The notes below the pieces were generated by a model, which was given only the letters and a program-made list of their open reading frames with translations, was not told where the DNA came from and searched no databases. The position numbers and the translations under genes are program-made. Positions 35,464 through 40,002 of a DNA stretch of 64,000 nt are shown in pieces; within the stretch, counting starts at the first letter, position 1; each line of letters starts with the position of its first letter. Source of the DNA: Rhizobium sp. SSA_523 (GTDB lineage: Bacteria; Pseudomonadota; Alphaproteobacteria; Rhizobiales; Rhizobiaceae); the NCBI RefSeq assembly GCF_030435705.1, contig NZ_CP129382.1, forward strand, positions 2,970,501-3,034,500. The letters run 5' to 3'.

Positions 35464-35817
35464 ATGGTGGAATCGGTCGGCAGCAATATGGACCAGCTGC
35501 GCGCTAACGAAACGGCACGCGAAGCCCGCGGTACAGTCGAGGCGGAAATCTCCGCACTGCGCTCGGAAGTGGCCAGCATCCGCTCCATGCTGTCCCAGGC
35601 TGGCGCGCAAACCCTGGACAAGGTTACGCAGGGCGCTGAACGCGCTGCAGATTATGTACAGGAAGAAGCCCTTTCGGTAGCCGGCGCAATTCGCGAACAT
35701 CCGGCGACAGCCACAACCTTGATGACCCTCATCGGCGGCATCGGCTTTGCCATCGGCTATCTTGTTGCATCCGCCCAGGCGGATCAGAAGCAGGCCTGGT
35801 ATCGCCGTTACTACTGA
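35464..35817 (+). CDS. ElaB/YqjD/DUF883-like membrane-anchored protein
   Basis: A 117-residue protein with a long charged helix (RGTVEAEISALRSEVASIRS) and one C-terminal transmembrane segment (TTLMTLIGGIGFAIGYLVA) ending in WYRRYY. This is the form of ElaB/YqjD proteins, tail-anchored inner-membrane proteins that bind ribosomes and are stationary-phase induced in E. coli. AAGGAG precedes the ATG at 35464. The exact EcfG promoter upstream fits stress induction. The end overlaps the convergent YbaK gene by seven bases. Confidence 0.75.
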   Translation: MVESVGSNMDQLRANETAREARGTVEAEISALRSEVASIRSMLSQAGAQTLDKVTQGAERAADYVQEEALSVAGAIREHPATATTLMTLIGGIGFAIGYLVASAQADQKQAWYRRYY

Positions 35818-36338
35818 TTTGGATCGCATCCGCCGGCGGTGGCTAAGCCGCCGGCGCTGACAGAGGCGCCTGGCGGAGGCGCCTGGCAGACATCCACCCA
35901 CTCGCCGTGCGTCAGTTCTGCCATACGGTCGGGGGAAAGCCGCACGGCCGCATTGGTGGCGCCCGCGGCGGGTACGACCAGATCGTGCCGGCGCAGCGAC
36001 TGGTCGAGATACACCTTCATGGGATTGGCAAGACCGAAGGGGCAGACGCCGCCGACCGGATGGCCGGTCTGCGCCACCACATCCTCTTGCCCCAGCATGC
36101 GCGGCTTTGCCCCGAACCGATCCCGAAATTTCCGATTGTCGAGCCTGCTGTCGCCGGAGGCTACGAGCAGGACCACATCTTCACCGGCACGCAGGCATAT
36201 GGTTTTCGCGATCTGGTCCGGAAGCACGTGATGCGCCAAAGCGGCGAGGGCGACGGTCGCCGAGCTCTGCTCGGTTTCGATGATCGTGATGTCCGGGGCG
36301 CGGGCGGCGAAGAAATCTTTGACGGATGTAAGGCTCAT
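35811..36338 (-). CDS. YbaK/EbsC-type aminoacyl-tRNA editing domain protein
   Basis: A 175-residue free-standing editing protein of the YbaK/ProX family, which deacylates mischarged tRNA such as Ala- or Cys-tRNA-Pro. It has AKTICLRAGEDVVLLVASGD with the conserved Lys, RMLGQEDVVAQTGHPVGGVC (the G-x-x-x-G-G-V/I motif that forms the active site), and PMKVYLDQSL. The ATG at 36338 begins MSLTSVKDFFAARAPDI; longer frames add sequence that is not family-like. The specific tRNA cannot be inferred. Confidence 0.82.
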   Translation of the reverse strand: MSLTSVKDFFAARAPDITIIETEQSSATVALAALAHHVLPDQIAKTICLRAGEDVVLLVASGDSRLDNRKFRDRFGAKPRMLGQEDVVAQTGHPVGGVCPFGLANPMKVYLDQSLRRHDLVVPAAGATNAAVRLSPDRMAELTHGEWVDVCQAPPPGASVSAGGLATAGGCDPNQ

Positions 36339-36455
36339 GCGGGCAAGGCTAGTGCGACAAGGGTGGCTACGCAAGCCTCGCACGCCGTTATGCAAATTTC
36401 GCATTGCTGCGCTGCGAAAAGCAGTCTGTTTTTTAAGCGAGGATCAGCTAGATTG

Positions 36456-36583
36456 ACATCATCGCAAGACGCACTCCTCCTCCCAGCGCCTTGCGACGGG
36501 ACCGGCAACACCTCCTCCTCCCGGTTGCTGGTCAGTTTTGAAAGCTCGGCGCACCTCCTCCCGCGCCGAGCTTTCTTCGTTTT
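36456..36583 (+). ncRNA. alpha-r14 / NfeR1-like trans-acting sRNA
   Basis: Three consecutive hairpins, each displaying a CCTCCTCCC-type anti-Shine-Dalgarno sequence in its loop. Hairpin 1 pairs 36463-36472 with 36486-36495 (one mismatch), hairpin 2 pairs 36500-36509 with 36524-36533 (one G-U), hairpin 3 pairs aaagctcggcgc (36541-36552) with gcgccgagcttt (36563-36574) perfectly and is followed by a T-rich run as terminator. This is the architecture described for the alpha-r14 family of Rhizobiales (NfeR1 of Sinorhizobium meliloti). It should repress many mRNAs by pairing to their ribosome binding sites. The exact 5' end is estimated. Confidence 0.85.
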
Positions 36584-36685
36584 AGCCCCCCCATTTTCTC
36601 GCATCAAGGCAAACGGAACGTGCCGATGGAGGGATCGGTGAGGAGCTTGGAACGAGCTTGGACGGGAGCTTGCCGGCGACTTCAC

Positions 36686-36714
36686 CTTGACACTGCAATG
36701 GCCCGACGCTACCT
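36686..36714 (+). promoter_or_regulatory. Possible cspA promoter
   Basis: CTTGAC (36686-36691), 17 nt, then CTACCT resembles the rhizobial housekeeping promoter CTTGAC-N17-CTATAT. It would give cspA a 5' leader of about 130 nt, normal for cold-shock genes. Moderate support only. Confidence 0.35.
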
Positions 36715-36849
36715 CCTACGCATCGATATTTGTTTGACAAGCGGCACTGCAGCGCTGACGGCGCTTACGACGATCTTTCTTCAAATACGAGCTAACCGTT
36801 CCGCTTCGGCTGGAACTAAAGTCAACGTTGCGAGCGAAAGGACGTCGTA

Positions 36850-37059
36850 ATGGCTACAGGTACTGTGAAATGGTTCAATGCTACCAAGGGTTTTGGTTTC
36901 ATTCAGCCCGATGATGGCGCTCAGGACGTTTTCGTTCACATCTCTGCTGTCGAGCGCGCCGGCATGGCGGGCCTCAAGGACGGCCAGAAGATCGCTTACG
37001 AGCTGGTGACGGACAAGCGTTCGGGCCGGGTTTCCGCCGACCGTCTGCAGGCTGCTTAA
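36850..37059 (+). CDS. cspA: Cold shock protein CspA family
   Basis: A 69-residue OB-fold RNA chaperone. [20 protein letters not shown] contains RNP1 (KGFGFI), and [10 protein letters not shown] is RNP2. The length is standard. AAAGGA stands eight bases before the ATG. It has a long leader, follows the sRNA gene on the same strand, and ends in a strong terminator. Alphaproteobacteria carry several paralogues, so the number in the family is not fixed here. Confidence 0.95.
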
Positions 37060-37091
37060 GCCCTTCTCGCCTCAAAGCGAGCGAGTTTTGA

Positions 37092-37130
37092 GAAATGGCG
37101 CCCTTGTAATCCGGGGGCGCCATTTCCATA
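37092..37130 (+). terminator. Intrinsic terminator of cspA
   Basis: Perfect 12-bp stem gaaatggcgccc (37092-37103) and gggcgccatttc (37115-37126), 33 bp after the cspA stop. Confidence 0.75.
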
Positions 37131-37330
37131 TTATGGCCAAGCGGCAAGACGACGCGATCTCCGGGCAGCAAAAGCGTTGCCAGTCTTTCGGAGGCCTGTT
37201 CCGTTAACGGAACATTAACCTTCTTGAGAGACGATGGAGATACTCAGTGCTGATCAATCAGCGCCGTCGACATGCCGAACCTGTTTCGGGCCCTGACCAC
37301 GGATGTACTGGCAGAGCGAGACAGGCGGAT

Positions 37331-37365
37331 AAAAGGTCGGGTTCAAGCCCGACCTTTTTGCTTTT
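37331..37365. terminator. Isolated strong terminator hairpin
   Basis: Perfect 11-bp stem aaaaggtcggg (37331-37341) and cccgacctttt (37348-37358) with a ttcaag loop and T-rich runs. It works in both directions by sequence. No annotated gene ends here, so it may end an unrecognised short transcript (see findings). Confidence 0.7.
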
Positions 37366-39452: not shown

Positions 39453-40002
39453 GGCAGGCAAGATCCTGTGCCGGTGGCTGGTGGAACATGAAAATGCAGG
39501 CGCCGGCCGCGCATCTTGCGTCTGCTCGATTCGTGTCAGCATCACTTATATAGCATCGTATTTAATTAACAGAGAGTGACGAAAGGCTCAGGCCCGCGGC
39601 GCGGCGGGGCGCCTGTCCGGTCTCGAACCTGCACTGACAAAGGCTGGGGAGGGGGAGTGATCATGGGAGGTCCGCCACGACCGGGAGGGGGACCGGCCGT
39701 GGCGGGAAGAAATGGACAAAGGCCCGGAGAGGGGGGAAGGCCTTTGCCCGGTCTGACGCGGCGGGGGACAGGCCGGTCATCAGACTGCGGCGTGATCAAT
39801 CGCCGATGATCAGGAAATGGCCATGCGGGGGCGGGCTTTCAAGGAAGCCTGTCATTACAAATGAGTAACGTTCGGGTGATCGCGCGAGCCATCCCGGATA
39901 CGGCAGAGGGGCGACGAGGCGGGGCCGAAAGCGCGCGTGAAATATCGAAGGAGATGCGGGAAGCCGTAGACCTTCCGCGCCTGCCGCGCTATCCATCCTC
40001 TC
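39453..40002. other. MarR-polA intergenic region with two strong hairpins
   Basis: About 550 bp. No ORF is convincing. Two inverted repeats stand out: ccgccacg/cgtggcgg at 39672-39705 and caaaggcc/ggcctttg at 39717-39746, with loops that are C/U-rich when read on the minus strand. They may belong to an sRNA (see findings). Confidence 0.5.

Follow-up and report, generated by a model that had tools for sequence, protein, structure and literature searches.

The genome of Rhizobium sp. SSA_523 carries a short segment, flanked by cspA and by a ybaK-type gene of divergent orientation, that folds into three adjacent hairpins, and the question is whether this segment encodes a small RNA (sRNA) in its own right or belongs to a neighbor, as part of the cspA leader or as an antisense transcript. 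We analyzed it within a stretch of 64,000 nucleotides, here called the window. The upstream gene encodes a YbaK-type aminoacyl-tRNA editing protein (35811 to 36404, minus strand; PF04073, E = 1.1e-24), which probably starts at 36338, because most homologs align from residue 22 or 23 on; the downstream gene is a cspA-type cold-shock gene (36850 to 37059, plus strand; PF00313, E = 6.1e-22). The original prediction had placed an α-r14-like sRNA directly before cspA, and this assignment was borne out by Rfam: the ar14 covariance model (RF02344) matches positions 36457 to 36578 of the plus strand with 109 bits (E = 3.2e-19; gathering cutoff, 58.8), over its full length from 1 to 123. The extent first proposed, 36456 to 36583, is slightly wider than the Rfam boundaries; including the U-rich tail, we place the gene at 36457 to 36583.

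The sequence from 36457 to 36583 has a predicted folding energy of −54.9 kcal/mol, against a mean of −33.5 kcal/mol for shuffled sequences (z = −6.0; 0 of 200 shuffles as good). The three hairpins, all on the plus strand, lie at 36462 to 36496 (−13.4 kcal/mol; 0 of 200 shuffles as good), 36500 to 36533 (−15.9 kcal/mol; 2 of 200), and 36540 to 36575 (−25.3 kcal/mol; 0 of 200), adjacent to one another as had been claimed. They contain the anti-Shine-Dalgarno (anti-SD) motif CCTCCTCCC at 36476 to 36484, 36514 to 36522, and 36554 to 36562, respectively, and in the predicted fold CCUCCUCCC is unpaired in the loop of each. A longer motif, CUCCUCCUCCC, is present in loops 1 and 2. The earlier description holds in these respects and needs correction in two others: the third hairpin, which resembles a terminator, has a perfect stem of 13 bp, not 12, and the U-run behind it is interrupted (UUCGUUUU). 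These three occurrences of CCTCCTCCC are all that the window contains on both strands. Shuffles of the window gave a mean of 1.05 matches, and 6 of 100 reached three, so the count alone is weak; its weight comes from all three lying in loops within 87 nt. A simple scan for promoters and terminators returned no promoter and a single terminator-like site upstream of the sRNA (36411 to 36425; shuffle mean, 1.0); its loop limit was 8 nt, and hairpin 3, with a loop of 10 nt, was thus not listed.

To place the gene among its relatives, 69 public loci were collected via the divergent ybaK-type neighbor protein. In 53 of them, an ar14 sequence precedes cspA in the same orientation; two of these 53 (L073 and L093) have only two full motifs. 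The other 16 (L036, L041, L084, L086, L087, L089, L090, L091, L094, L095, and L097 to L102) include several from distant phyla, and L036 is a contig that stops at the place in question; one inspection took in L034 to L096 and the window, while L097 to L102 were covered by another only. When 20 of the 69 loci were scanned with Rfam models, ar14 exceeded its cutoff in 16, the exceptions being L036, L041, L086, and L091. Across sampled genomes of the family, 108 of 121 had an ar14 match above the cutoff (116 of 121 at E = 0.001), and among 14 control genomes there was none above the cutoff.

Counting the window, 52 of 54 sequences have three full copies of CCTCCTCCC, and the predicted folds leave each of the full motifs entirely unpaired. 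For covariation, 50 distinct relatives and the window were aligned. In these 51 sequences, pairing holds in 99.8% of the 1,121 cells that make up hairpins 2 and 3, and changes on both sides occur in 10 of 22 pairs (4 of 10 in hairpin 2 and 6 of 12 in hairpin 3); shuffles gave 3.5 such pairs on average, and none of 500 reached 10. The structure was itself derived as the consensus fold of this alignment, and the count is hence biased toward it. Structures slid along as a control were only 30 to 42% paired. Further pair types in the two hairpins were not above shuffles (70 of 500 reached the value). Hairpin 1 was unpaired in the consensus fold, we think because its stem was misaligned, and was excluded from the count. 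By single-sequence folding, all 54 sequences form 9 to 15 predicted pairs around its loop, with 29 different 5′ arms. Stems that vary while pairing is kept are therefore seen in the alignment for hairpins 2 and 3 and in single-sequence folding for hairpin 1. We conclude that the window copy of ar14 is a real, structurally conserved member of an already known sRNA family, in a conserved location.

The ar14 family includes NfeR1 of Sinorhizobium meliloti, which has a role in osmoadaptation and nodulation. An LsrB box of the form TGCA-N6-GCAT has been described for the NfeR1 promoter (PMC10746234), and the same form occurs at 36391 to 36404 within an upstream element of the window copy (36390 to 36409, plus strand), recognized by pattern and position. 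It begins at −66 from the model start, inside the region near −72 to −60 in which the box is expected for NfeR1. A likely −10 hexamer, CTAGAT, is placed at 36448 to 36453 (plus strand) by its position and by comparison of upstream regions. A longer composite of the upstream element is kept in 53 of the 54 syntenic promoters, starting between −64 and −68. By pattern alone a shorter composite is not rare, appearing in 23 of 100 shuffles of the 64-kb window, so its weight derives from the fixed place. The exact TGCA-N6-GCAT was found in only 5 of 54 promoters and TGCA-N6-GCA[AT] in 25 of 54, which makes LsrB binding in the relatives less sure than the composite itself. NfeR1 has a further, NtrC-type element, TGC-N11-GCA, near −116 to −101; a search of 200 nt ahead of the window copy found none, and 3 of the 54 syntenic promoters have one between −140 and −70. 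The NtrC signature is reported to be limited to symbionts (PMC10746234), which fits its absence from this stretch.

A probable counterpart has been detected experimentally in Agrobacterium tumefaciens C58, where the published order is C1_109477F, the cspA leader C1_109596F, cspA (109823 to 110032), C1_110258F (123 nt), and C1_112676R (142 nt) (PMC3738593). The window has the same block. Downstream of ar14 and cspA, an ar35-like sRNA (37234 to 37363, plus strand; RF02346, 43.9 bits against a gathering cutoff of 45, E = 3.2e-6) corresponds in position to C1_110258F, and an ar7 sRNA of 142 nt on the opposite strand (39667 to 39808, minus strand; RF02342, 92.1 bits; gathering cutoff, 60) corresponds to C1_112676R; measured from the start of cspA, the spacings in the two organisms differ by no more than about 110 nt. 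The ar35 match, just below its cutoff here, is above it in 8 of 20 relatives scanned. Of the Sinorhizobium-type genomes, the two that were examined (L152 and L153) likewise have an ar7 match close to an ar14 copy. Given the matching order, C1_109477F is probably the positional ortholog of the window ar14, judged by coordinates and by Agrobacterium relatives with the same layout. It shares the strand, the place before cspA (Atu0106), and the matching size, order, and strand of the RNAs that follow; it is 118 nt long, with a Northern signal of about 120 nt, and its level shifts strongly with the medium, with RPKM values from 413 to 37950 over eight libraries (PMC3738593). A literature search, which did not extend to subscription papers, found no paper connecting C1_109477F to ar14.

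The comparison with C1_109477F was made here by coordinates, and the published table differs from our assignment in one point, since it classes this RNA as antisense to Atu0105 (PMC3738593). The window copy could be read in the same way, as a cis-antisense RNA to a reading frame on the opposite strand: an open frame of 116 amino acids (36335 to 36685, minus strand) does run antisense to it. We regard this as extremely unlikely. Atu0105 mRNA is given as undetectable in all eight libraries (PMC3738593), the frame in the window crosses both the putative promoter of the sRNA and hairpins in which sequence variation respects base pairing, and copies of the ar14 family occur elsewhere in the same genome. 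The 116-amino-acid frame is perhaps the equivalent of Atu0105. At another locus (L155), the antisense strand of an ar14 paralog likewise lies within a long frame.

The position directly before cspA had also raised the question of read-through or joint stress control. Pressed furthest, the hairpins would be mainly part of a long cspA leader, with the sRNA promoter reading through into cspA and coupling the two. The shared strand and the adjacency in 53 of 69 loci are consistent with such a leader, as is the interrupted U-run after hairpin 3. In A. tumefaciens, moreover, the sRNA ends at 109594 and the annotated leader starts at 109596; this leader is 227 nt long and the cspA RNA about 500 nt (PMC3738593), which exceeds what initiation at the conserved promoter described below, with a leader of about 130 nt, would give. 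Against this stands the likely cspA promoter, CTTGAC-N17-CTACCT (36686 to 36714, plus strand), at a conserved position before the ATG, followed by a conserved leader (36721 to 36849, plus strand) beginning CATCGATATTTGTTTG. All 54 loci have CTTGAC 155 to 185 nt before the cspA ATG, 39 have the strict form CTTGA[CT]-N16..18-CTA, and 52 have the leader start ATCGATATTTGTTTG. The RNA levels in A. tumefaciens also vary independently: over four conditions, the sRNA ranges from 3009 to 37950 RPKM with TEX and from 413 to 24677 without it, a 12.6-fold and a 60-fold change, whereas the cspA leader stays within 1098 to 1443 (1.3-fold) and 377 to 868 (2.3-fold) (PMC3738593). Finally, tblastn (1e-5) detected no cspA in about 20 kb around the counterpart copy in two Sinorhizobium-type genomes (L152 and L153).

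Because cspA has its own conserved promoter element and the A. tumefaciens levels are independent, joint control is not supported, and read-through does not appear to be the main arrangement; we consider the long-leader reading unlikely and infer that cspA forms a separate transcription unit. Some read-through from the sRNA into cspA is possible, and the published 227-nt leader and the RNA of about 500 nt are not explained by our placement of the cspA promoter. The Rfam model for the cspA leader C1_109596F (RF02762) matched 36633 to 36849 with 21.6 bits (gathering cutoff, 125; E = 0.001), and RF01766 matched 36728 to 37125 with 27.6 bits (gathering cutoff, 78), both below their cutoffs. Among 20 relatives scanned, RF02762 exceeded its cutoff in 3, and this family may, from the sequences compared, reach about 100 nt farther upstream than the conserved cspA promoter. 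In L045, L048, and L052, RF02762 matches abut or slightly overlap ar14.

The genome holds four ar14 copies, all above the cutoff: the window copy, which scores best (109 bits), and copies at C2:186522 (103 bits), C4:2963863 (100.4 bits), and C4:1352992 (95.1 bits). Which of these corresponds to NfeR1 was approached through a tandem ar14 pair found in five Sinorhizobium-type genomes. One of these genomes, G341, is 94% identical to pSymB of S. meliloti 1021 over 1051 positions; a plasmid search gave 358 records with partial matches, none covering 80% of the query, and only the match to S. meliloti 1021 pSymB was used. In four of the five genomes (L120, L122, L124, and L125), one member of the pair carries TGCA-N6-GCAT at −71, and L121 has TGCG-N6-GCAT instead. 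The −10 of this member is CTATAT in G341 and G257 and CTATCT in G302; box and −10 are as reported for NfeR1. A tRNA-Leu gene lies upstream of the pair in G341 and G302, the two genomes examined for tRNA, and in Rhizobium sp. SSA_523 the tRNA-Leu-linked copy is C4:1352992. In G302 the tRNA and the sRNA share a strand, whereas in G341 and in Rhizobium sp. SSA_523 they lie on opposite strands, and the positional match is accordingly approximate.

The window copy lines up with a different Sinorhizobium-type copy, the one beside an M20 peptidase gene, marR, and ar7, whose order is conserved in G341 and G302, at a distance of about 3 kb instead of 1 kb from the peptidase gene. Around that copy, a stretch of about 20 kb in each genome (L152 and L153) gave no tblastn hit (1e-5) to ybaK or to cspA, and ybaK was likewise not detected by tblastn at the C2 copy of Rhizobium sp. 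SSA_523 (L002/L157). By promoter motif and approximate coordinate in the Sinorhizobium-type genomes, the tandem is probably the NfeR1 locus. The window copy shares with S. meliloti NfeR1 (Smr14C2, SmelC397) the ar14 family, three anti-SD loops, and a TGCA-N6-GCAT box near −70 (PMC10746234, PMC7143759), but by its neighborhood it is probably not the positional counterpart: NfeR1 fits the tRNA-Leu-linked locus, and the window copy corresponds to the ar7-linked Sinorhizobium copy and to C1_109477F. The NfeR1 label, as first applied, is not supported in this narrow sense. A part in nodulation, suggested by the same analogy, is not expected in Rhizobium sp. SSA_523 either, because nifH and nodC models gave matches below their curated cutoffs only, in a genome rated 100% complete.

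With four copies present, the window copy could be an unexpressed spare, kept while another does the work; in S. meliloti, one of six ar14 copies was reliably detected by Northern blot (PMC7143759), and the copy detected there is probably not the counterpart in position of the window copy. We nonetheless hold this to be very unlikely, since the window copy scores best of the four, its upstream composite is kept in 53 of 54 loci, and its probable A. tumefaciens ortholog is abundant (PMC3738593). It is conceivable, though we put it forward tentatively and would not favor it, that the main expressed copy has moved between lineages, the cspA/ar7 copy being the dominant anti-SD RNA in Rhizobium and Agrobacterium and the tRNA-Leu-linked NfeR1 in Sinorhizobium, with an LsrB-like box kept at both.

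Other features of the paralogs were recorded. A second copy lies about 41 to 53 kb from the cspA-linked one (C4:2963863 versus C4:3006957 in Rhizobium sp. SSA_523), as also seen in G395, G396, G397, G047, G343, and G204. The copy at C2:186522 (L002, about 1480 to 1640) has a second loop that is degenerate and an additional anti-SD motif located 18 nt ahead of the position where the model begins. This layout, similar to that in L127 and L132, perhaps resembles the four-hairpin SmelA099 type. About 4 kb from the same copy is a match to the ROSE thermometer element (RF00435, 68.5 bits; L157, 4363 to 4455).

Beyond ar14, RNAs of the SmelA075/SmelA099 type are reportedly the subject of a 2015 paper on "cuckoo RNA." Several other families have a comparable design. 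The SmelA075 and SmelA099 families have three or four hairpins with CCUCCUCCC loops and several copies per genome (PMC3927594); the window copy differs in being fixed in place, in 53 of the 69 loci fetched by its neighbor. CcsR1 (RF02791) is a stress-induced sRNA with CCUCCUCCC loops according to its Rfam description, and its model gave 27.8 bits on the window copy, below the cutoff of 65.3. The AbcR sRNAs have CU-rich anti-SD motifs in unpaired regions (PMC7143759); they are set apart, by description, in having two such motifs as opposed to the three loops of the window ar14.

Taken as a whole, the locus very probably encodes a trans-acting α-r14 sRNA with its own promoter, whose anti-SD loops silence many mRNAs, and from which cspA is separate. 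We infer its expression, promoter, control by LsrB, and targets in Rhizobium sp. SSA_523. Transcription would begin at a σ70-type promoter with the LsrB-like box upstream and end at the third hairpin. Each hairpin would present CCUCCUCCC in an open loop, and any of the three loops could pair with the Shine-Dalgarno (SD) region of many mRNAs, so that translation initiation would be blocked; the sRNA might in this way tune nutrient uptake and nitrogen genes in poor medium or stress. Repression of translation initiation, the mode originally suggested, is likely by analogy: the anti-SD loop design has been shown to act in this way for NfeR1 in S. meliloti (PMC10746234, PMC7143759), which silences ntrB, an effect lost when its three loops are mutated, and also silences two ABC-transporter mRNAs (PMC10746234).

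Predicted duplexes were compared between 87 roughly called translation starts from the genome and 174 coding-sequence controls. The ntrB start ranked fifth of 87 by duplex energy, and one of the four stronger starts was an artefact (a frame on the antisense strand of an ar14 paralog); inspected by eye, the SD of ntrB (GGGAGG) can form six contiguous pairs with the loop motif. Duplexes of −18 kcal/mol or stronger were formed by 21 of the 87 starts and 33 of the 174 controls. As starts were hardly separated from coding sequence, no target list was drawn, and the rank of ntrB lends weak support. Repression of the neighboring cspA was considered and rejected, its start pairing no better than average (53 of the 87 starts were stronger).

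These comparisons link results that have stood under separate names: C1_109477F, catalogued as antisense, probably belongs to the ar14 family and shares the loops of NfeR1, and the biology of NfeR1 would therefore be testable in relatives that do not nodulate. They also suggest that one location of this multicopy sRNA, the one beside cspA, is fixed and vertically inherited.
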